Shown piece by piece: positions 4,588-52,028 of a DNA stretch of 53,504 nt. Within the stretch, counting starts at the first letter, position 1. Each line of letters opens with the position of its first letter. The DNA is taken from positions 1 to 53,504 of the forward strand of contig JAISCE010000026.1 in assembly GCA_031265765.1 (NCBI GenBank), read 5' to 3'. Below the pieces are notes generated by a model. It saw only the letters and a program-made list of their open reading frames with translations. It was not told the origin of the DNA and searched no databases. The DNA is from Azoarcus sp. (GTDB lineage Bacteria; Pseudomonadota; Gammaproteobacteria; Burkholderiales; Rhodocyclaceae). A program made the position numbers and the translations under genes.

Positions 4588-4624
4588 CGCGCCTTTAAGC
4601 ACGATCATATTCATCGGGTTTCAT

Positions 4625-4736
4625 GGAAAACTGGCTCCGGCTGGAAACCTTTTCCTTCAGGGGAATGATCCTATACGGGAAGGGCGCAGCCTCTTCCATA
4701 CCTTGTCGTCCGGCTCTGCCGGACGTGGAGTGAAAT
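4625..4736 (+). repeat. three-hairpin intergenic repeat, copy 1
   Basis: One of three related ~110-bp elements (others at 12915 and 22776). Shared blocks include GAAAACTG, TGGAAACC, TCCTTCAGGG, ACGGGAGGGGCGCA, TCGTCCGGCTCTGCCGG and a final TGAAA. In this copy the hairpins are 4650-4665 (TTTTCC/GGGGAA around TTCA), 4678-4697 (GGAAG-GGC/GCC-T-CTTCC around GCA) and 4708-4724 (a perfect 7-bp stem GTCCGGC/GCCGGAC around TCT). It lies between an extended -10 promoter and mlaF. On the minus strand an ATG (4624) aligns with the start codons found at the other two copies, but here it opens only a 9-codon frame ending in TAA at 4595-4597. Confidence 0.85.
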
Positions 4737-4752
4737 AAACAAACAAACGGAC

Positions 4753-5571
4753 ATGGCATCGACCGCTTCCGGCAATCCTCTCGTCAGTTTGAATCATGTC
4801 GGCTTCGCCTATGGCGCGCGCGAGATTCTGCGCGATGTCGATCTGACCGTGCATTGCGGCCAGGTGGTGGCGATCATGGGGGGCAGCGGCTCCGGCAAGA
4901 CAACCTTGTTGCGCTTGATCGGCGGTCAGTTGCGGGCGGATGCGGGCACGGTGGAGGTTGACGGGCAAGATATGGGCCGCCTGCCGGTTCCGGCCCTTTA
5001 TGCCTTGCGGCGGCGCATGGGGATGCTGTTCCAGTTCGGGGCGCTTTTTACCGATATGTGCGTATTCGACAATGTCGCCTTTCCCCTGCGCGAACATACC
5101 GCCCTGCCCGCCGAAGCGATCCGCGACCTGACGCTGATGAAGCTCCATGCCGTGGGCCTGCGCGGCGCGGCGGCCCTGATGCCTTCGGAGCTTTCGGGCG
5201 GCATGGCGCGGCGGGTGGCGCTGGCGCGCGCGGTGGCGCTCGACCCCATGCTGATGCTCTACGACGAGCCTTTTGCCGGACTCGATCCGATTTCGCTCGG
5301 GACGATCGGGCATTTGATCCGCCGCCTGAACGATGCCCTCGGCGCGGCTTCGATCATGGTCACGCACGACGTGCAGGCTTCGCTCGATCTGGTCGATTAT
5401 GTCTATTTCGTCTCGGAAGGCGGCATCGTGGCGCGCGGCGCGCCCGCGGAGATCCGTGCCTCGAACGATCCTTTCGTGCATCAATTCGTCCATGCCGAGG
5501 CCGACGGCCCGGTGCCGTTTCATTATCCGGCGCCGCCCCTGGCAAGCCTGCTCGACGAGGCGCGGACATGA
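4753..5571 (+). CDS. mlaF: phospholipid transport ABC ATPase MlaF
   Basis: A 272-residue ABC ATPase of the Mla system, which moves phospholipids between the outer and inner membranes. Visible motifs are Walker A (GGSGSGKTT), the Q-loop (LFQFGALFTDM, typical of the MlaF branch), signature LSGGMARRVALARA, Walker B (MLMLYDEPFAGLDP) and the H-loop (MVTHDV). It is the first gene of mlaFEDACB, and its stop overlaps the mlaE start (ATGA at 5568-5571). The ATG at 4753 lies 16 bases after repeat copy 1. Gene order and the MlaF-type Q-loop make the assignment firm. Confidence 0.95.
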   Translation: MASTASGNPLVSLNHVGFAYGAREILRDVDLTVHCGQVVAIMGGSGSGKTTLLRLIGGQLRADAGTVEVDGQDMGRLPVPALYALRRRMGMLFQFGALFTDMCVFDNVAFPLREHTALPAEAIRDLTLMKLHAVGLRGAAALMPSELSGGMARRVALARAVALDPMLMLYDEPFAGLDPISLGTIGHLIRRLNDALGAASIMVTHDVQASLDLVDYVYFVSEGGIVARGAPAEIRASNDPFVHQFVHAEADGPVPFHYPAPPLASLLDEART

Positions 5572-11954: not shown

Positions 11955-12914
11955 TCAGGACGCACCGTTTCCGCCCGTCCCGGCCCAGGCCGCGCGGATT
12001 GCCGCGATGCCATGCGCGCCTGCCCGGCGAGCCGCGGCCATATCCTCATCCGCAAGGCCGCCCAGCGCGAACACCGGCAACGGCAGACCGGCAGCCAGCG
12101 CCGCGAAGCCTTCCCAACCCAACACGCCGCCCGAAGGATGGGTCGCGGTGGCTTTCACCGCCCCGAGGAGCGCGTAATCCAGCCCCAGGGCCGCGGCGTG
12201 TTCGAGTTCGGCGCGACAATGGCAGGATGCGCCGACCCAGGCAAAACCGGGACGCGCCGCGCTCGCCATCAAGCGCGGCGCGGGCAGGTGGAGACCGTCG
12301 GCCCCAACCGCGAGCGCCAGTTCCGGATCGTCATTGACGAGGACCAGCGCACCCGCCGCATGGGCGCGGCGGACGGCTTCAGCGGCAAACGCCCGCCGCG
12401 CGGACGCGGGCAGCCCGGCTTCACGAAGCTGAACCAGGCGCAGCCCCGCCGCCAGCGCGCGCGAGAGCGCGGCGAGTTGGCGCTCGACGCCAACCGCCGC
12501 GGCCTGGGTGATCCCCATCCGGCGCGGCAAGCTCAATGCCTTGAGAACAGGGCCGTTCGCAGGCAGCATCGGCGCGCAAGCTTCGTCCGCCGCAACCCAC
12601 GCCAGGGCGGCATGCACATGGTTGCGGATTTCTCCCCGCCAGCGGATAACTTCAAAAAAATGCAAACTGACGCTGGCATGCTCATATTCGTGCGCGCGCA
12701 CGATCCACGGATAAAAGCTTTCGACCCCGATATCCAGTTCTTCACGGAGTTCGCGGCACAGCGCCTCGGCGGGCGACTCGCCCATTTCCACCTTGCCGCC
12801 GGGGAACTCCCAATAACCGGGATAAAACGTGCCCGGCGCGCGCCGCCCGAGAAGAAAGCGCCCATCGCCTCGCACGATGATGCCAGCGGCGACATAAACG
12901 ATTTTGCGGTTCAT
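11955..12914 (-). CDS. Nudix hydrolase / thiamine-phosphate-synthase-like fusion
   Basis: A 319-residue two-domain protein. Residues 1-130 form a MutT-type Nudix domain with WEFPGGKVEMGESPAEALCR followed by ELREELDI, a full Nudix box. Residues ~145-319 form a TenI/ThiE-like barrel (LVQLREAGLP, VLVNDDPELALAVGADGLHL, FALGGL). The fusion is known in proteobacteria, where the Nudix part resembles 8-oxo-dGTP diphosphatase. No other thi gene is nearby, so a thiamine role is unproven. ATG 12914 begins the typical MNRKIVYVAAGIIV start and is the last base before repeat copy 2. A strong AAGGAGGAGG lies about 20 bases upstream inside the repeat, further than usual. Confidence 0.88.
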   Translation of the reverse strand: MNRKIVYVAAGIIVRGDGRFLLGRRAPGTFYPGYWEFPGGKVEMGESPAEALCRELREELDIGVESFYPWIVRAHEYEHASVSLHFFEVIRWRGEIRNHVHAALAWVAADEACAPMLPANGPVLKALSLPRRMGITQAAAVGVERQLAALSRALAAGLRLVQLREAGLPASARRAFAAEAVRRAHAAGALVLVNDDPELALAVGADGLHLPAPRLMASAARPGFAWVGASCHCRAELEHAAALGLDYALLGAVKATATHPSGGVLGWEGFAALAAGLPLPVFALGGLADEDMAAARRAGAHGIAAIRAAWAGTGGNGAS

Positions 12915-13026
12915 CGAAAACTGACTCAGGGTGGAAACCTCCTCCTTCAGGGAAATAACCATATACGGGAGGGGCGCAACCCCTTCCCGGCCTTATCGTC
13001 CGGCTCTGCCGGGTGTGAATTGAAAC
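12915..13026 (+). repeat. three-hairpin intergenic repeat, copy 2
   Basis: The closest relative of copy 1. Hairpin 2 is 12967-12988 (GGGA-GGGG/CCCC-T-TCCC around CGCAA). Hairpin 3 is 12998-13014 (GTCCGGC/GCCGGGT, closed with two G-U pairs on the plus strand). Hairpin 1 (12941-12955) is the weakest of the set. CCTCCTCCTT at 12938-12947 is complementary to a Shine-Dalgarno sequence. The left edge abuts the start codon of the minus-strand Nudix gene. The right edge runs into TTGAAACATGTTTCAA (13020-13035), a perfect 16-bp palindrome upstream of nfeD. Confidence 0.85.
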
Positions 13027-13082
13027 ATGTTTCAACCAAGCTCAACCAAGTTACAATTCCCGCTTTGACGCAAGAGGATATT

Positions 13083-19711: not shown

Positions 19712-20563
19712 TTATCCCTCTGCCCCGCCGCCGCGCTGGCGAACGGTCTCGAACAAACATATCCCGCTGGCCACCGACACGTTGAGGCTTTCGACGCTGC
19801 CCAGCATCGGGATATGCACCAGTTCATCGCAAGTGGCCCGCGTCAACCGCCGCAAACCCTCGCCCTCGGCCCCCAGAACCCAGGCAAGCGGTCCCCGCTG
19901 GTCGATGCCGAAAACAGACGTTTCCGCTTCGCCCGCCGCCCCCACGACCCATACCCCGGCTTTTTTCATCTGCTCCAATGCCCGCGCGAGATTGGTCACG
20001 GCAATGTAAGGCACGGTTTCAGCCGCGCCGCTGGCGACCTTGACTGCGGCGGCATTGAGACTGGCGGCGCGATCCTTGGGCGCGATCACGGCATGTACGC
20101 CCGCCGCATCCGCCACCCGCAGGCATGCGCCGAGGTTGCGCGGGTCCTGCACACCGTCGAGCACCAGCAGCAAAGCCGGCCCGGCCAGGGATTCCAGCAC
20201 GTCGTCGAGCGCGATCATGCGTTGCCGGGCGTCGACGCGGGCAATCACGCCCTGATGACGGCGGGTACCCACCATGCCGTCGAGACGCTCGCCTTCGACC
20301 TGGGTCATCCTCACCCCGGCTTCTTCGGCGAGCCGGTGGACTTCACGCGCGCGCGCATCGTTGCGCAGCGCGGAAAGATAAAGCTCGAACACAGCGTCCG
20401 GATCGCGGCGCAAACGACCGAGCACGGCATGGAAACCGTAGATCAGACGGCTGGGCGCATGCGCCGCCGCGCCGCCGCCATTCTCACGTTGCTGCCCATG
20501 ACAAGCGTCGCCGCGTGGCGCGCGCGCCTTTTTCCCGCTCGTGGAAAAATGGCATTCAGACAT
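19712..20563 (-). CDS. rlmB: 23S rRNA (guanosine-2'-O-)-methyltransferase RlmB
   Basis: A 283-residue SpoU/TrmH-family enzyme that methylates a guanosine of 23S rRNA. It has an N-terminal substrate-binding domain ([30 protein letters not shown]) and a C-terminal knotted SPOUT domain with the three family motifs: [34 protein letters not shown], and [20 protein letters not shown]. The first ~38 residues are an extra polar extension. ATG 20563 lies within the last codons of rnr (8-base overlap), the classic rnr-rlmB pairing, which supports this start over the longer frame. Confidence 0.94.
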
Positions 20564-22775
20564 GGCGCTTTCCTCCGGCGCGACGCGCTTCGCCTTCGAG
20601 CAAACGGAAATCGATCTTGCTGGTTTCCAGATCGGCGCGGACCAGCTGCACGCGCACCCGGTCGGAGAGACGGTAACGAACATGCGTGCGTTCGCCCGCC
20701 AGTTCATGGCGAGACTCATCGAAATGGAAATAATCACTGCCGAGATCGGAGATATGCACCAGTCCTTCGATGAAAATATCGTCGAGCGCAACGAACAAAC
20801 CGAAAGGCACTACCGACGACACACTGCCGGAAAACGTCTCGCCGATGCGATCGCGCATGTAATAGCACTTGAGCCATGCCATCACATCGCGGGTGGCTTC
20901 GTCGGCGCGGCGCTCCGTTGCCGAACAGGTCATGCCCACGGCGTCCCAATCGCCCGGATCGTAGCGCCCGCCGGCAAGCACGGCCTTGATGGCGCGGTGC
21001 ACGAGCAAATCGGGATAGCGCCGGATCGGTGAAGTGAAATGCGTATAGGCGTCGTAGGCGAGGCCGAAATGGCCGACATTGTCCGGGCTGTAGACGGCCT
21101 GGCGCAACGAGCGCAGCATCACCGTCTGCAAAAGCTGTGCATCGGGGCGCTGGCGCGTCTTGTCGAGCAGCGCAGCATAATCCTTGGCCGTCGGCTTGTC
21201 GCCGCCGCCGAGAGCGAGGCCGAATTCGGCAAGGAATCCGCGCAGTTTTTCGAGCTTCTCCGGCGTCGGCCCCTCATGGATACGGTAAAGCGCCGGATGC
21301 CTGTGGCCTTGCAGAAAATCCGAAGCGCACACATTGGCGGCAAGCATGCATTCCTCGATCAAGCGGTGTGCATCATTGCGCGTCTCGGGAACGATGCACG
21401 CGATCTTGCCCTGGCCGTCGAATTCCATGCGCGTCTCGACGGTCTCGAAGTCGATTGCCCCGCGTCGCGCGCGCGCCTTGAGCAAGGCGCGGAACAAATG
21501 GTCGAGATCCTGCAAATGGGGCAACAGATCGCCGAGCGCGGCGGCGGCCTCGCCATTCCCTTCGTAAAGCGCCGCCGCCACCTGGCCATAGGTGAGCCTC
21601 GCATGGGAAAACATTACCGAGGGATAAAAACGGTAGGCTTCGATCTCCCCGCTCGCGGAAATATTCACATCCGCCGCCATGCAAAGGCGCTCGACTCGCG
21701 GATTGAGCGAACACAGCCCATTGGAGAGCTTTTCCGGCAGCATGGGAATGACACGGCGGGGGAAATACACCGAATTGCCGCGCTCGCGGGCATCGCGGTC
21801 GAGCGCGCTGCCCGTCTCGACGTAATGCGACACATCGGCAATCGCCACCACCAGCCGCCAGCCGCGCGCCCGGCGCTCGCAATAAACCGCATCGTCGAAA
21901 TCGCGCGCCGTCTCGCCGTCGATAGTCACCAACGGCAAGGCGGTGATGTCCTCGCGCCCGGCAAGATCCTTCTTGCGCACGCTCTCCGGCAGCCTGCGCG
22001 TCTGCGCGCGCGCCTCGGGCGAGAACTCGAACGGCAGTTCATGCTTGCGCAATGCGATCTCGATTTCCATGCCGGGATCGGCATAATCGCCGAGCACTTC
22101 GACGATGCGCCCCACGGGCCGGGCATCGCGCGCCGGCTGGCCGACCAGTTCCACCACGACCACCTGCCCCGAGCCGGCCCGCTTGCCGCCCGAGGCGACC
22201 AGAATATCCTGCGCCAACCGTTTATCTTCCGGCGCAACGACCTTCACGCCGTGCTCATCGAGCACGCGGCCCACGATCCGGGTGTTGGCGCGTTCGAGCA
22301 CCTCGACGATCTTGCCTTCCGGACGGCCCCGCCGATCCAGGCCGGCAATGCGCACGATCACGCGGTCGCCATGGAGCGCCGCGCGCATGGTTTTGGGGCC
22401 GAGAAAGATATCGCCGCCGCCATCGTCCCGGCGCAAAAAACCGAAACCATCGGGGCGTCCTTCGACACGGCCGCGTATCAACCCGGCCTTGTCCGGCAAC
22501 AACCATGCATCGCGACGATTGCGCAACAACTGCCCATCGCGCAACATCGCCCGCAGGCGGCGCTCGAAAAATCCGAATTCTTCGTCGCGGATGTCGAGTG
22601 CATTCACAAGCGCGTCGAACTGCATCGGCACCCCTGCACGGGAGAGAATCTGTTCGATGTACTCCCGGCTAGGCAGTGGCGCGGGGTATTTCTGCGTCTC
22701 GCGCTCAAAGAAAGGATCGGCGCGGCGAATCGCGCTCGGCCCGGCATCGCCGTTCTTTTTCGTTTTTCGAGTCAC
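20556..22775 (-). CDS. rnr: ribonuclease R
   Basis: A 739-residue 3'-5' exoribonuclease of the RNB family. N-terminal winged helix ([20 protein letters not shown]) and cold-shock domains ([20 protein letters not shown]) precede the RNB catalytic core. That core holds the Asp cluster in [16 protein letters not shown] and the [11 protein letters not shown] strand. A C-terminal S1 domain ([20 protein letters not shown]) and a short basic tail follow. The start is a GTG at 22775 with GGAG nine bases upstream; repeat copy 3 begins at the next base. Overlap with rlmB indicates a two-gene operon. Confidence 0.96.
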
Positions 22776-22883
22776 TGAAAATTATCTCCGATTGAAACCC
22801 TCCCCCTTCAGGGGGATAAATCCGGCGCGGGAGAGAGCTCCCTTCCACGTCGTGTCGCCCGGTCATGGACGCGGACTGAAACA
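22776..22883 (+). repeat. three-hairpin intergenic repeat, copy 3
   Basis: The most diverged copy, but with the same architecture. Hairpin 1 is 22801-22816, a perfect 6-bp stem TCCCCC/GGGGGA around TTCA. Hairpin 2 is 22829-22842 (GGGAG/CTCCC around AGAG). Hairpin 3 is 22851-22873 (CGTGTC/GACGCG, with one U-G pair on the plus strand). The left edge abuts the GTG start of rnr on the minus strand; the right edge touches the -35 box of the tRNA-Leu promoter. Stems are kept while their sequences differ from copies 1 and 2. Confidence 0.78.
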
Positions 22884-22911
22884 TTGACTTTCTTCCCCAG
22901 GCTTTTATAAT
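22884..22911 (+). promoter_or_regulatory. sigma-70 promoter of tRNA-Leu
   Basis: TTGACT (22884-22889) and TATAAT (22906-22911) are spaced by 16 bases, with a GC-rich discriminator before the tRNA at 22923. A strong promoter, starting immediately after repeat copy 3. Confidence 0.85.
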
Positions 22912-22922
22912 GCGCCCCGCTT

Positions 22923-23007
22923 GCCCAGATGGCGAAATTGGTAGACGCGCTAGTTTCAGGTACTAGTGCCGCAAGGCGTGGAGGTTCGAGTCCTCTTCTG
23001 GGCACCA
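22923..23007 (+). tRNA. tRNA-Leu (anticodon CAG)
   Basis: An 85-base class II tRNA. The acceptor stem GCCCAGA pairs with TCTGGGC and is followed by A and an encoded CCA. The anticodon stem CTAGT/ACTAG encloses the loop TTCAGGT (anticodon CAG). A long variable arm (GCCGCAAGGC) and the T-loop GGTTCGAGTCC are present. Confidence 0.97.
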
Positions 23008-23333: not shown

Positions 23334-23380
23334 CTTCTCTCCATTCCTCCCGCGCCCGTCGCGGGATGGATGGAGAGAAG
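23334..23380 (-). terminator. long two-part hairpin downstream of sucB
   Basis: CTTCTCTCCAT (23334-23344) pairs perfectly with ATGGAGAGAAG (23370-23380), and inside it TCCCGCG (23348-23354) pairs with CGCGGGA (23360-23366). It begins eight bases after the sucB stop. No T-run follows, so it may stabilise the mRNA 3' end as much as terminate. Confidence 0.7.
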
Positions 23381-23387
23381 AACACCA

Positions 23388-24572
23388 TCAAATATCCAGC
23401 ACCAGCCGCGCCGGGTCTTCCAGCGCCTCTTTCATCGCCACCAGCCCAAGCACCGCTTCGCGCCCGTCGATGATGCGGTGGTCGTAGGACAGGGCCAGGT
23501 AGTTCATCGGGCGGATGACGACCTGACCGTTTTCCGCCACCGGGCGATCCTTGGTGGCGTGGATGCCGAGGATGGCCGACTGCGGCGGGTTGATGATCGG
23601 CGTGGACATCATCGAGCCGAACACGCCGCCATTGGAAATCGAGAAAGTGCCGCCGGTGAGGTCTTCGATCGTGAGCTTGCCGTCCTTGGCCTTGAGGCCG
23701 AATTCGGCGATCTTCAGTTCGATTTCGGCCACGGACAGCAGTTCGGCACTGCGCAGGATGGGCACGACCAGGCCGCGCGGGCTGCCCACGGCGATGCCGA
23801 TGTCGATGTAGCCGTGGTAGATGATATCGCCGCCGTCGACCGAGGCGTTCAGGATCGGATAACGCTTGAGCGCCGCCACGGCAGCCTTGACGAAGAAGCC
23901 CATGAAGCCGAGGCGCACGCCGTGCACTTTCTCGAACCTCTCGCCATATTGCTTGCGCAGCGCCATCACCGGGGCCATGTTCACTTCGTTGAAGGTGGTG
24001 AGGATGGCGTTTTCGTTCTTGGACTGGATCAGGCGCTCGGCGATGCGGGCGCGCAGACGGGTCATCGGCACCCGCTCTTCCGGGCGGTCGCCGGTGATCG
24101 TCACCGCCGGCGCGGCAACGGGCGCGGGCGCTTTGGCCGCTGGCGCGGCCCTGGCGGCAACGGCGTCTTCCTTGGTCACCCTGCCGCCGCGTCCCGTGCC
24201 GCTCACCGTGGAAGCGGGGACGCTCTTTTCTTCCAGTATCTTGCGCGCCGCCGGGCCGGGTTCGCCCGCCGCGCGGGCGGCGGAGGCTTCGTCCGCGCCG
24301 GCGGGCGCGGCTCCGGCGCTCGCGGCGGCCTTGGCTTCGGTGTCGATACGGGCGATCAGATCGCCCGAGGTGACGGTTTCGCCGTCTCCCTTGACGATTT
24401 CGACCAGCACCCCGTCGGCGGGAGCCGGGGTTTCGAGCACGACTTTGTCGGTTTCGATGTCGATCAGGTTTTCATCGCGCGCGACCGCTTCGCCAGCCTT
24501 TTTATGCCAGGCCACAAGCGTGGCCTCGGACACGGATTCGGATAGCTGCGGTACTTTGACTTCGATCAGCAT
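23388..24572 (-). CDS. sucB: 2-oxoglutarate dehydrogenase E2 (dihydrolipoamide succinyltransferase)
   Basis: A 394-residue E2 core of the 2-oxoglutarate dehydrogenase complex. The N-terminal lipoyl domain carries the modified lysine in [11 protein letters not shown] (Lys43). An Ala/Pro-rich linker follows, then a peripheral subunit-binding domain ([27 protein letters not shown]) and the acyltransferase core with catalytic [12 protein letters not shown] (His365, Asp369). Length is normal. It is 23 bases downstream of sucA. No lipoamide dehydrogenase (lpdA) gene follows: the next thing is a terminator-like hairpin, so E3 must be supplied from elsewhere. Confidence 0.97.
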
Positions 24573-24595
24573 GGTTGTCTCCTCACTTTATCTGC

Positions 24596-27484
24596 TTATG
24601 GATTATTGGGCGATTGCGGCGTGGTGTCCTGGATGGGACCGAAGGCGTGTTCGATCACATCCTTTTGCTGCTGCACGTGCCGGGCGTGGTAGCCGACGGC
24701 GGGCGAGGCCGAGGCCGGACGGCTGACCAGCAGCAACTCGCGGCGCGCTTTTCCGCCGGATGCCCGCCCAGGTTGTCCGGTGAGGACGCCGATGAGGTGC
24801 TGGCGCGAAGCCAGCCAATACCAGGCGCCCTGGTTGCGCGGTTCTTCCTGGCACCACACGATTTCGCCGGCATTGGGGAATTGCTCGATCGCTTCGGCGA
24901 ACGCGCTGGCCGGGAAGGGATAAAGCTGTTCTATCCGCACCAGCGCGGCATCGGTGATTTTCCGTTCGCGGCGGTAGGCGAGCAGTTCGTAATAGAGCTT
25001 GCCCTGGCACAGCACGATGCGTTTGACCTTCTTGCGGTCGAGTGCTTCGGTTTCCGGAATGACGGTCCGGAAGCCGCCGCTGGCGAGATCGTCGAGGGAC
25101 GAAACCGCCTCCTTGTGACGCAGCAGCGATTTCGGCGAGATGATGACGAGCGGCTTGCGCGTCTTGCGCATCATCTGCCGACGCAGCAGGTGGAAGATTT
25201 GCGCGGGCGTGCTCGGCACGCAGATCTGCCAGTTTTCTTCCGCCGCCATGTTCATGAAGCGTTCCAGGCGGGCGGAGGTGTGTTCCGGCCCCTGTCCCTC
25301 GTAACCGTGCGGCAGCAGGAGGGTCAGTCCATTGAGGCGTCCCCATTTGGCTTCGCCCGAGGAGATGAACTGGTCGATCACCACTTGCGCGCCGTTGAGG
25401 AAGTCGCCGAACTGGGCTTCCCAGACCACCAGTTCGTTCGGCTCGGTGGTGGCATAGCCGTATTCAAAGGCGAGCACGCCTTCTTCGGAAAGCACCGAGT
25501 CGAAGCACTGGAAGCGGGCCTGCCCTTCCTGGATATGGGCAAGCGGCGCGAAAATGCCTCCGTCCCAGTGTTGCCGGTTCTGGTCGTGCAGTACCGCATG
25601 GCGATGGAAGAAGGTGCCGCGCCCGACATCCTCGCCCGAGATGCGCACGCCGAAGCCCTGCGCGAGCAGGCTGGCATAGGCGAGGTTTTCCCCCATGCCC
25701 CAGTCGAGCGGCAATTCGCCGCGCCCCATCGCGGCGCGGTCGTCGATGATTTTCTTCACCCGCGAGTGCAGGACGAAACCTTCCGGAATGCGGGTGAGGG
25801 CTTCGGCAAGGCGGCGGACTTCCTGCGCCGGAATCGCGGTGTCGGCTTCGTCGGTGTAGGGTTGTTTGTGGAAAGGCAGCCATTCCGCCGAGAACTGGCG
25901 GTTATGGCCGGAAAGCATCGGGTTGTAAAGCAGTTCGCCCTGGTCGAGATGCTCGCGGTATTCGGCGATCATTCTTCCGGGTTCATCGGCCGCGAGCGTG
26001 CCTTCGGCCACCAGGCGGTCGGCGTAGAGTTTGCGAGCGCCCGGATGCTTCTGGATGATGTGGTACATCAACGGTTGCGTGACCATCGGCTCGTCCTGCT
26101 CATTGTGGCCGAGCTTGCGGAAGCAGAATACGTCGATTGCCACGTCCTTCTTGAATTCCTGGCGGAATTCGACCGCCAGCCGGGTCACGAAGGCCACTGC
26201 TTCCGGGTCGTCGCCATTGACGTGGAAAATCGGCGCTTCGACCAGCTTGAAGATGTCCGTGCAATAGAGCGAGGAACGCAGGTCGCGCGGGTCGGACGTG
26301 GTGAAACCGATCTGGTTGTTGATGACCAGATGCACGGTTCCGCCCGTGCCGTAGCCGCGGGTCTGGGAAAAATTGAGCATTTCCTGGTTGACGCCCTGTC
26401 CGGCCACCGCGGCGTCGCCGTGGATCAATACCGGCAGCACCTGCGCCTTCTCCGTGTCGCGGCGGCGGTTCTGGCGCGCATAGACCGAGCCTTGCACCAC
26501 GGGATTGATGATTTCCAGATGCGACGGATTGAACGCCAGCACCAAGTGCATCGGCCCGCCCGGCGTCATGACATCGCTGGAAAAGCCCATGTGGTATTTG
26601 ACATCGCCGGCGCTGAGGTCGACCGCGGTCTTGCCCTCGAATTCGGAAAACAGCATCGAGGGCGATTTGCCCAGGACATTGACCAGCAGGTTGAGGCGGC
26701 CGCGGTGCGCCATGCCGATGACGGTTTCGGCCACGCCCAGGCCGCCCGCGACTCGCAGGATTTCGTCCATGGCCACGATGGCCGATTCCCCGCCTTCGAG
26801 CGAGAAGCGTTTTTGCCCGACGTAGCGGGTATGCAGGTAGCGTTCGAGCGTCTCGGCGGCGGTCACGCGTTCGAGGATGTGGCGCTTGGCTTCGGGCGAG
26901 AAGTTCGGCGTGGCCCGGACGCCTTCGAGGCGGCGCTGGATCCAGCGCCGCTGGTCGACGTCGGTGATGTGCAGGTACTCGGTGCCGATCGAGCCGCAAT
27001 AGGTCTGGCGCAAGGCTTCGAGAATCTCGCGCAGGGTGGCGCGATCTCCCGGAAAGCCCATGAAGGAGCCGACGTTGAAGGTCTTGGACAGATCGGCCTC
27101 GGTGAAACCGTAATGCGAGGGTTCGAGTTCGGGAATTCGCGGACGCTCGCCGCGCTTGAGCGGATCGAGGCTGGCGCGGCGATTGCCGAGATAGCGGTGG
27201 GCGGTAATCAACTGCAAGACGTCCGCCTGCAATTTGTCGTCGCATTCGGCGCTCGTGGTGCGTACCGGGCCGCGCTTGGCCATCTGCTCGAAGGCGGCGA
27301 TGATCGGGCTGTGCGCCACATCGCGCACCGCCGCGCCCGCCTGCGCCTGGAGTCGGTCGAAATGCGCGCGCCAGCTCTCATCGACCGAGGCGGGGTTGGC
27401 CAGGTAGTTCTCGTAAAGTTCCTCGATGAACGGCGCATTCGACCCGTACAGATAAGAGGTGCCCTGTAGTTCTTTCTCTTTCAT
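24596..27484 (-). CDS. sucA: 2-oxoglutarate dehydrogenase E1 component
   Basis: A 962-residue thiamine-diphosphate enzyme that decarboxylates 2-oxoglutarate and passes the succinyl group to SucB. It opens with the typical SSYLFG-like block (TSYLYGSNAPFIEELYENYL). The ThDP region is visible as IHGDAAVAGQGVNQE followed by TGGTVHLVINNQIGFTTS. Conserved FSSDVMTPGGPMHLVLAF and the C-terminal transketolase part (LLPHGYEGQGPEHTSARLER; VWCQEEPRNQGAW) are intact. ATG 27484 was chosen; an in-frame ATG six codons upstream (27502) is equally possible. A terminator after gltA suggests some separation from the upstream genes. Confidence 0.96.
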   Translation of the reverse strand: MKEKELQGTSYLYGSNAPFIEELYENYLANPASVDESWRAHFDRLQAQAGAAVRDVAHSPIIAAFEQMAKRGPVRTTSAECDDKLQADVLQLITAHRYLGNRRASLDPLKRGERPRIPELEPSHYGFTEADLSKTFNVGSFMGFPGDRATLREILEALRQTYCGSIGTEYLHITDVDQRRWIQRRLEGVRATPNFSPEAKRHILERVTAAETLERYLHTRYVGQKRFSLEGGESAIVAMDEILRVAGGLGVAETVIGMAHRGRLNLLVNVLGKSPSMLFSEFEGKTAVDLSAGDVKYHMGFSSDVMTPGGPMHLVLAFNPSHLEIINPVVQGSVYARQNRRRDTEKAQVLPVLIHGDAAVAGQGVNQEMLNFSQTRGYGTGGTVHLVINNQIGFTTSDPRDLRSSLYCTDIFKLVEAPIFHVNGDDPEAVAFVTRLAVEFRQEFKKDVAIDVFCFRKLGHNEQDEPMVTQPLMYHIIQKHPGARKLYADRLVAEGTLAADEPGRMIAEYREHLDQGELLYNPMLSGHNRQFSAEWLPFHKQPYTDEADTAIPAQEVRRLAEALTRIPEGFVLHSRVKKIIDDRAAMGRGELPLDWGMGENLAYASLLAQGFGVRISGEDVGRGTFFHRHAVLHDQNRQHWDGGIFAPLAHIQEGQARFQCFDSVLSEEGVLAFEYGYATTEPNELVVWEAQFGDFLNGAQVVIDQFISSGEAKWGRLNGLTLLLPHGYEGQGPEHTSARLERFMNMAAEENWQICVPSTPAQIFHLLRRQMMRKTRKPLVIISPKSLLRHKEAVSSLDDLASGGFRTVIPETEALDRKKVKRIVLCQGKLYYELLAYRRERKITDAALVRIEQLYPFPASAFAEAIEQFPNAGEIVWCQEEPRNQGAWYWLASRQHLIGVLTGQPGRASGGKARRELLLVSRPASASPAVGYHARHVQQQKDVIEHAFGPIQDTTPQSPNNP

Positions 27485-49816: not shown

Positions 49817-49869
49817 TGCACCCCGCTTTGGTGTGTCCCAAACAGAAACCGGGGACGCGCCGGAGTTTT

Positions 49870-50055
49870 CGCACTCTTGGTGCCGCCGGCCTCGTAACCG
49901 GCGGTTGAACGGGAAAGCGGTGCGCGTCCTTCGGACGCAATGCCGCTGCTGCCCCCGCAACGGTAAGCAAGTGCGGATCCGCCATTCATGCCACTGGGCG
50001 TCCTGCCTGGGAAGGCGGCGGATCAAGACTTGCAAGCCCGGATACCGGCCAGATG
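49870..50055 (+). ncRNA. cobalamin riboswitch
   Basis: The leader contains the conserved order of an adenosylcobalamin-type aptamer: TTGGTGCCGCCGGC; GGCGGTTGAACGGGAAAGC; GGTGCG; GCCGCTGCTGCCCCCGCAAC followed by GGTAAGC; GCCACTGGG; CCTGGGAAGGCGGCGG; and the B12 box AGCCCGGATACCGGCC (50035-50050). It precedes the outer-membrane B12 receptor gene, so cobalamin should lower btuB expression. The part before it (49720-49869) shows no gene. Confidence 0.96.
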
Positions 50056-50134
50056 CGAGCCAATGGAGACGCTGCGGGGCGGCGCCGCTTCCTTGCCCCC
50101 GCCGCCATGCCGTTTCCCTTTTTCGACCATGATT

Positions 50135-50171: not shown

Positions 50172-52028
50172 ATGCCCATTCACAAAAAATTGCTGGCCTC
50201 CTTGTGCCTGGCGGCCATCGCCGCGCCCATCCCCTCCTTTGCCCAAAATGCCATAGACGTGGCGGAACTCGATACCGTCGTCGTCACCGCCACGCGGCAG
50301 GAAACGCGGGCGAGCGATGTGCTCGCCGATGTCACAGTCATCGATCGCGAAGAAATCGGGCGAAGCGGCCAGGAAACGATCGTCGACTTGCTCGCGCGCC
50401 AGCCGGGCATCCAGGTCAACACCAGCGGCGGCGCGGGAACAGCGTCGTCTTTTTATATACGCGGCGCGAATTCCGATCAGACCAAAGTGCTGGTCGACGG
50501 CATTCCCATCAACTCCGTCGACCTGAGCGGCTCGCCGCTGCGTTTCATGCCGCTCGGCGACGTGGAGCGCATCGAAATCCTGCGCGGCCCGGCGGCAACC
50601 CTTTACGGCGCGGATGCCATCGGCGGAGTGATCCACATCATTACTCGCCGCGGCAAACCCGGCCTGCGGGCGGAAGCTTCCGCCGGTTACGGCTCGCACG
50701 CCACGCGCAAGGCAACGGCGGGACTTTCCGGCGGCGATGAGCACTGGCGCTTTCATGTGGCGGCAAACCATTACGCAACCGATGGAATTTCCGCGCAACG
50801 GCACGCCACCAACAAGGATGCCGACGACGACGCCTACCGCAACACGGGCGGCGCGGTTTCGTTGTCTTTCCTGCCTGCGGAAAAGCACGAGTTCGGCTTG
50901 AGTTACCGGGAAAATCGGGGGATGGTGCATTACGACAGCGGCAACGTGCCTCCCTACGGCACACCGAACGGTGTCGACGACTACCGGAGCCGGTTCGACA
51001 CCCGGCAATGGCAACTATTCAGCAAAAACCGCTTTTTCTCCGACCGCTGGACGAGCACCCTTCAATACGGCGAAGCCGTGGATGACGAGAAAAGTTACGG
51101 CGCAGGCGGCGACCGAAGCAAACTATTCACCCGGAACCGGCAACTGACGTGGCAGAACGACATCGAACTGCCGCTCGGCAAACTGATACTGGCGGGCGAG
51201 CGGCTGCGTCAAAACGCCGGGCCGAAAGCCGACTACCAGACCAGCCACATGACCAACGACGCCTTCATGGCAGGATGGATGGCCAGACTCGGCGATCACG
51301 ACTGGCAAGTCAACGCTCGTTCCGACCATCATTCCGAATTCGGGCGCGAAAACACCTACAGCCTCGCCTATGGCTACCGGATCGCGCCGGAATGGCGCGC
51401 GCGCATCGGTTACGGCACCGCCTTCAAGGCGCCGTCTCTCTACCAGCTCTATACGAAATCGTGGGGCTACGGCAACCCGGATATCAAGCCGGAAAAAGCC
51501 CGCAACCGCGAAGCCGCCCTGATCTGGGAGCGCGGCCCGCACACGGCATCGCTCACCGTGTATCGCAATAAAGTCAAGGACTTGATCTCCTCGAACCCCA
51601 TCACATGGCAAGCCGACAACATTTCCAGAGCCAAGCTTTCCGGCGCGACGCTTGCCTATTCCGGCATCTTCGACGGCTGGCGGCTGGGCGCGGCCTACGA
51701 CCGGCTCGACGCGCGCAATGACGACACCGGCCGCCGCCTGGGCCGCCGCGCGCGCGACTCGGCCATCTTCAATCTCGCCCGCGAGTGGGGAAAATTCAAC
51801 GTTGGCACGGAAATCGTCGCGGTCGGCAAACGTTACGACAACCATACGGAAAGCGAAACCCTGGGCGGCTACGTCCTGGCGAACCTGACCGCAAGCTACG
51901 CGCTGACGCCCGAACTGCGCATCGAAAGCCGCCTGAACAATCTTTTCAACAAAAAATACGAAACCGTGCGCTACTACAATACCGGCGGTTTCAATGCCTT
52001 CATCGGCCTGCACTACAGCCCGCAATAG
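50172..52028 (+). CDS. btuB: TonB-dependent vitamin B12 receptor BtuB
   Basis: A 618-residue outer-membrane receptor. The signal peptide ends at SFA (residue 24). The TonB box region is ELDTVVVTATRQ. The plug domain is visible (ETIVDLLARQPGIQVNTSGG; SSFYIRGANSDQTKVLVDGI; DVERIEILRGPAATLYGADA) and a 22-strand barrel ends in the aromatic-rich GGFNAFIGLHYSPQ. The C-terminal RLNNLFNKKYETVRYYN motif is typical. The cobalamin riboswitch upstream supports B12 rather than iron as substrate. Its stop lies four bases from the convergent purM stop. Confidence 0.95.
   Translation: MPIHKKLLASLCLAAIAAPIPSFAQNAIDVAELDTVVVTATRQETRASDVLADVTVIDREEIGRSGQETIVDLLARQPGIQVNTSGGAGTASSFYIRGANSDQTKVLVDGIPINSVDLSGSPLRFMPLGDVERIEILRGPAATLYGADAIGGVIHIITRRGKPGLRAEASAGYGSHATRKATAGLSGGDEHWRFHVAANHYATDGISAQRHATNKDADDDAYRNTGGAVSLSFLPAEKHEFGLSYRENRGMVHYDSGNVPPYGTPNGVDDYRSRFDTRQWQLFSKNRFFSDRWTSTLQYGEAVDDEKSYGAGGDRSKLFTRNRQLTWQNDIELPLGKLILAGERLRQNAGPKADYQTSHMTNDAFMAGWMARLGDHDWQVNARSDHHSEFGRENTYSLAYGYRIAPEWRARIGYGTAFKAPSLYQLYTKSWGYGNPDIKPEKARNREAALIWERGPHTASLTVYRNKVKDLISSNPITWQADNISRAKLSGATLAYSGIFDGWRLGAAYDRLDARNDDTGRRLGRRARDSAIFNLAREWGKFNVGTEIVAVGKRYDNHTESETLGGYVLANLTASYALTPELRIESRLNNLFNKKYETVRYYNTGGFNAFIGLHYSPQ

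Follow-up and report, generated by a model that had tools for sequence, protein, structure and literature searches.

The window analyzed here, i.e., the whole stretch of 53,504 nucleotides of Azoarcus sp. DNA, holds three copies of a small, hairpin-rich repeat (Table 1). The original prediction of three related copies on the plus strand was confirmed; each is ~115 bp long and has the same hairpins. A covariance model, trained on all three, placed copy 1 at 4620-4738 and the other two at the spans given in Table 1, all on the plus strand. When copy 2 served as the BLASTN query, copy 1 was recovered at 82% identity (E 8.7e-27), and copy 3 was absent from the list at E<=10. Copy 3 is real, since MAFFT aligns it and exactly that stretch is absent from 18 related species. 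An unfiltered model scan of the window found no fourth copy, the next match having E=0.2. The copies had been placed between genes, which holds with small exceptions: copies 2 and 3 each start at the first codon of a divergent gene, and copy 1, counted with its tail, runs up to the start codon of the gene that follows. There, the AT after the tail doubles as the beginning of the ATG of an ABC-transporter gene. At the left border of copy 3, relatives have GTCAT or a near variant in place of GTCAC, and its right border adjoins a −35-like TTGACT of the tRNA-Leu gene (promoter read by eye).

Elsewhere in the window, Rfam 15 at the gathering cut-off reported only a cobalamin riboswitch (49861-50067, plus strand, 114.6 bits) and two tRNAs. 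Just 3′ of the riboswitch lies a TonB-dependent receptor gene (50172-52028, plus strand; Pfam), an ordinary vitamin B12 uptake arrangement. Two long open frames on the plus strand (23370-24545 and 24575-27469) have no Pfam match at E<=0.001 and are candidate genes only.

Table 1. Positions of the three copies, their parts, and the genes at their borders in the window
Feature	Position	Strand	Basis	Remarks
Copy 1 including target and tail	4620..4754	+	Model, reading of sequence	
Copy 1 target TTCAT	4620-4624	+		Element body follows, to 4738
Copy 1 hairpin 1	4650..4665	+		TTTTCC-TTCA-GGGGAA
Copy 1 hairpin 2	4672..4700	+		
Copy 1 hairpin 3 and CRISPR-repeat-like right end	4705..4736	+		
Copy 1 degenerate (AAAC)n tail	to 4752	+		Then AT, 4753-4754
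Gene with NUDIX and thiamine monophosphate synthase domains	11955..12914	-	Pfam	ATG is left border of copy 2
Copy 2	12910..13028	+		Target TTCAT 12910-12914; right AT 13027-13028
RNase R-like gene (RNB domain)	20556..22775	-	Pfam	GTG start is left border of copy 3
Copy 3	22771..22884	+		Left GTCAC; right AT 22883-22884
tRNA-Leu	22923..23007	+	ARAGORN	

To define the repeat beyond the window, a set of 110 model matches was examined, most of which (104) are full length. The insert consists of C(A/G)AAAAC, four stems, and then GTGGATTG(AAAC)n; its length is about 111-114 bases, with several hairpins. It lies directly 3′ of YTCAT in 86 of the 104 full-length copies, the left pentamer being TTCAT in 75, CTCAT in 11, TTGAT in four, TTTAT in three, and another sequence in 11. 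The right end, G(AAAC)n, is usually followed by AT (80/104 copies). Among the 96 copies with a clear end, the tail is a single AAAC unit in 84 and runs to 2-7 units, degenerate ones allowed, in 12, five of which go straight into AT. Terminal inverted repeats are absent, only 6 of 20 end positions agreeing.

The site of copy 3, between rnr and tRNA-Leu, is empty in all 18 readable other species of the genus; two species gave no match. These empty sites mostly read TCAT|TGAC, and the window reads GTCAC-element-AACAT-TGAC. Copy 1 is wedged between a conserved, promoter-like sequence and the beginning of the ABC-transporter gene, and the loci L089, L090, and L091 are without it. For copy 2, the comparison covers the left side only, in one relative. 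Eight further copies were compared against six genomes. Clean empty sites were obtained for two (an SCP2-domain gene and another gene read by eye as RNase H) and a partial one for a third; at two, the right junction carries about 25 odd bases, another gave a readable left side only, and the remaining two were without a match. Duplication of the target amounted to at most 2 bp, AT. The three hairpin repeats are copies of a small mobile DNA, known to date only from one group of related bacteria; the less favored reading, a set of RNA genes, is most likely not correct.

With copy 2 as the query, BLASTN listed 35 places in the own genome, a total that includes copy 2 and some weak matches that look like chance. 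The covariance model search, which had been suggested as a check, was run in the own genome and in relatives. It gave 44 matches in this genome (E below 1e-4), among them the 19 copies from which the model was built and which match by construction. Fourteen of 40 genomes match: this one and 13 from the other 20 species in the genus, against none of the 19 from outside it; three of the matching genomes (G010, G011, and G019) have a single weak match each. Richer genomes have 12 (G001), 17 (G004), 24 (G009), and 38 (G020) matches, the assemblies of G004 and G020 being about 80% complete and that of the present genome 98%. Because copies reach contig ends, as in G020 (at, or a few bases from, the ends of contigs C154, C182, C268, and C29), copy numbers in draft genomes are lower bounds. 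Copies are about 94-95% alike inside G017 and inside G009 and less alike across species, so amplification proceeded lineage by lineage. Plasmids and phages yielded no element matches (BLASTN, E<=0.01), and two exact element patterns were not found in viral contigs. The family had been reported as unrecognized, and this stands: no Rfam family, the Betaproteobacteria toxic small RNA among them if release 15 includes it, reaches its gathering score at the three places, low-threshold Rfam scans of two copies gave sub-threshold matches only, and a search of the open-license literature found no description of this element family.

The claim of three ordered hairpins whose stems persist through base changes holds between species. 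In 97 copies (94 distinct), 93.4% of the cells of the named stems pair vs 41-62% with the partners slid, a comparison in which the stems, drawn from one of the sequences, are favored over the slid controls. Both sides have changed in 8 of the 11 pairs of hairpin 2, and one stem pair reads T-A in G017 and G009, A-T in G020 and G001/G004, and G-C in this genome. The hairpin 3 stem drawn for copy 3 (CGTGTC/GACGCG) is not the family-wide register. The proposed test of covariation came out in part. On three of five measures, the copies score above every one of the 500 shuffles; the number of pairs with double changes and the number of pair types do not rise above them. Within four other species, neither pairing nor double changes lie above shuffles. 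Within this genome, pairing is 0.871 vs 0.857 shuffled (2/500 shuffles reach it), and double changes number 26 vs 16.9 shuffled (3/500 shuffles reach it), a weak excess that subfamilies could explain.

The argument for the plus strand, built on wobble pairs in three copies, fails on the whole set of this genome: 30 copies of this genome hold 63 new G·U pairs vs 67 A·C mismatches (p 0.79). Four other species, when pooled, have 40 cells with G·U vs 18 with A·C (p 0.005); counted as distinct kinds, these are 28 vs 18 (p 0.18). Furthermore, one G·U pair is fixed in hairpin 2 (80/97 copies), two more are lineage-specific, and no A·C is fixed in any lineage consensus. Over the 97 copies, 93.3% of the cells pair on the plus strand and 88.1% on the minus strand, largely because of the one fixed G·U pair. 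Based on the fixed and the lineage-specific G·U pairs, the lack of a fixed A·C, and the G·U lean of the younger copies, the plus strand is likely the relevant one, as single-stranded DNA or as the RNA of a source element, the numbers being small. The plus-strand RNA claim survives to that extent, but action at each locus is unsupported; an RNA acting per locus would predict a G·U excess, and the old copies of this genome lack it. Covariation between species together with symmetric decay in the old copies here suggests that the fold is kept in an active source and not in each copy. In other words, selection seems to act on the source element's plus strand in its folded form, to be relaxed in old copies, and to serve mobility. 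On this evidence alone, each copy may still have a function.

In many copies, the YTCAT target is a start codon read in reverse complement. A start-like left ATG was found at 24 of 86 copies; among the control YTCAT sites in the window, 15 of 184 have one (p 5.5e-5). In this count, copies are not independent, the one G004 copy is left out, and 17 copies have no ATG. Here, start-like means a frame of at least 100 codons (or open to the edge of the available DNA) preceded by a stop no more than 25 codons upstream. Further copies adjoin Pfam-supported genes for ThiC, a WaaP-type kinase, a SIS-domain protein, and a RecD-like helicase. Insertion at start codons may be tolerated because the frame that begins at the old start codon would stay open on the minus strand. 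Alternatively, tolerance might come from a stop just ahead of the new start codon or from GGAG about 10 nt ahead of the new start, which is not in most G017 copies.

Copies also lie inside genes. An exodeoxyribonuclease III gene of G009 (contig C161, locus L235) has one copy at its start and one inside, with the frame continuous; residues 1-85 and 118-227 of its product align to residues 1-85 and 81-191 of 2jc4, and Pfam Exo_endo_phos is matched from first to last position. In G020, a copy lies in frame within a nitrilase-family gene. One open frame (L024:674-2788, minus strand) joins a glycosyltransferase to a WaaP-type kinase by way of an element copy, and the insertion may have fused two neighboring LPS genes. 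Most read-through frames are not established as element-interrupted genes, because 4 of the 10 compared with Pfam lack a match.

Non-autonomous IS200/IS605 derivatives have a left pentamer target, subterminal hairpins, and no inverted repeats; the target of ISDra2 is TTGAT. The element shares these traits, and it inserts 3′ of a fixed short target with no long duplication; it differs in its AAAC tail and in that no matching transposase was found in the genomes searched. The best explanation, to which we give about an even chance, is a non-autonomous mobile element, perhaps IS200/IS605-like. The target on the left, the hairpin ends, the absence of inverted repeats, and the absence of a long target duplication point to this mode, in which a transposase acting in trans would recognize the folded plus strand as single-stranded DNA in the IS200/IS605 manner. 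Several observations speak against it: the AAAC tail is unexpected, the right AT is present in only 80 of 104 copies, odd right junctions occur at two of eight sites, and the G·U bias of 40 vs 18 could also result from an RNA function of each copy. An IS200-like transposase was found in 5 of 21 genus genomes, all of them element carriers (G019 by its weak match only), and none was found in the present 98%-complete genome. The flanks examined at six Y1 loci of relatives hold no element ends or copies, and no autonomous Y1 element with the same ends came to light in this genome or in those flanks. The Y1 transposases at L272 and L273 we take to be REP-associated. At L273 (1348-2067, minus strand), a peptide resembling VGAGLKPAPT recurs in the frame of the Y1-type transposase and in its neighbors, the pattern that a second short coding repeat would leave if it had spread around the Y1 gene.

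Other routes of mobility were weighed. In a SINE-like retroelement, plus-strand RNA would be reverse transcribed and inserted, with (AAAC)n arising by slippage at the cDNA start; the variable tail of 12 in 96 clear-ended copies and the plus-strand fold with its fixed G·U would suit this. However, the copies are mostly full length where 5′ truncation would be expected, and reverse transcriptase, found in 9 of 21 genus genomes, is missing from G001, G004, G009, and G020 (G004 and G020 in assemblies about 80% complete) despite their 12, 17, 24, and 38 matches, so that we consider such an origin unlikely. The presence of reverse transcriptase or of Cas1 does not track element copy number. Separately, L298 (contig C81 of the own genome) holds, near an integrase-like frame, a reverse transcriptase that looks retron-like. 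A somewhat poorer candidate is a DDE-type MITE that would duplicate a 2-bp target, AT: AT does flank most copies on both sides, but terminal inverted repeats are absent, duplication reaches at most those 2 bp, and the target preference is asymmetric, on the left only. The original proposal, a structured RNA gene or leader family functioning at each locus, could draw on the strong covariation between species in hairpin 2, the weak excess of pairing and double changes in this genome (reached by 2/500 and 3/500 shuffles), the G·U bias in four other species, and the start-codon enrichment. It is improbable, given the empty sites of relatives, the patchy presence within one genus in a sample of 40 genomes, the strand-symmetric decay here (63 vs 67), and the in-frame copies inside genes; an RNA family acting in place is not supported. 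Least probable of all is a coding palindrome retained for its peptide, a functional protein insert. The in-frame copies in the exodeoxyribonuclease III and nitrilase-family genes would fit, as would an inserted length divisible by three in 20/23 (G017), 11/14 (G009), and 16/22 (G020) copies, with 4/7 in G001 and 1/1 in G004; but the frame is kept in just 13/37 copies of this genome, at least one minus frame is open in about 41-66% of base shuffles, and none is open in all five lineage consensuses. Since base shuffles give open frames at rates that are not clearly lower, we claim no selection for a peptide.

The right end also resembles CRISPR repeats. The hairpin 3 region of copy 1 matches Rfam CRISPR-DR9 below the cut-off (16.6 bits, E 0.4), and that of a younger copy (L191, G020) aligns over the full length at 25.5 bits (E 6.2e-4; gathering score 45). 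A 12-repeat CRISPR array next to a cas1 gene in G015 (L276) has repeats ending in GGACGTGGATTGAAAC, and the element shares with it the right end GTCGYCC..GGRCGTGGATTGAAAC; G015 itself bears just one element match. Such repeats presumably belong to type I-C, whose PAM is TTC, the same letters as in the left target TTC of the element. In contrast to CRISPR repeats, the element copies are single and dispersed, form no array, and stay under the Rfam gathering score. A strict type I-C repeat pattern was found in 0 of 21 genomes, though G015 has the related array. That the element was moved by, or derived from, type I-C adaptation machinery is a slim prospect: the right end resembles the G015 repeat and CRISPR-DR9, and the left flank is TTC (PAM-like) or CTC in most copies, but the AT after TTC is nearly constant too, and Cas1, positive in 9 of 21 genus genomes, was found neither in this genome nor in G004, G009, and G020. 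No genuine Cas5d was found in this genome; one match, sub-cut-off and in a flagellar gene region, is spurious. It is just as doubtful that the element is a stand-alone mobile guide RNA, made of the repeat-like hairpin and GAUUGAAAC with the right flank as guide. The plus-strand transcript would end in the CRISPR-repeat-like hairpin and GAUUGAAAC and continue into the right flank, and the uninserted allele has exactly this flank right after TTC(AT), which equals the type I-C PAM and is also similar to a target motif of TnpB. Empty alleles might then be cut, either by a type I-C complex or by a nuclease like TnpB, so that the insertion would spread. This geometry is read from the junctions, in a genome without Cas1 or Cas5d in the searches made.

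We rate the element as a small non-autonomous palindromic insertion, and it behaves most like the Rickettsia palindromic elements. These are 105-150 bp long, give folded transcripts, and have 12-bp terminal inverted repeats (PMC2229807, PMC10969869). Shared with them are the size range and the combination of intergenic copies with in-frame copies in conserved genes (PMC2229807, PMC10969869), here exodeoxyribonuclease III in G009 and a nitrilase-family gene in G020. In contrast to them, the present element has no inverted repeats and targets a fixed pentamer; its host, moreover, belongs to another branch of the phylum (Betaproteobacteria). REP elements, whether GTAG- or CGTC-tagged, are palindromes of 20-40 bp (PMC3733652). 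Like the element, they are palindromic, multi-copy, and partly intragenic, and the CGTC class is described there without a known dedicated transposase (PMC3733652). The element, about 111-114 bp with several hairpins, is not the single tagged palindrome of that account (PMC3733652).

One lesson of the present analysis is that, when the members of a multi-copy family have a covarying fold, the cause can be mobility rather than RNA function; decay within a genome should therefore be compared with covariation across lineages. The CRISPR-repeat-like end and the TTC-type target offer a possible, testable link between small palindromic repeats and guide-RNA systems. Furthermore, this compact insertion family often sits at start codons and can add about 38 residues to conserved enzymes with the frame kept, a behavior best described in Rickettsia.
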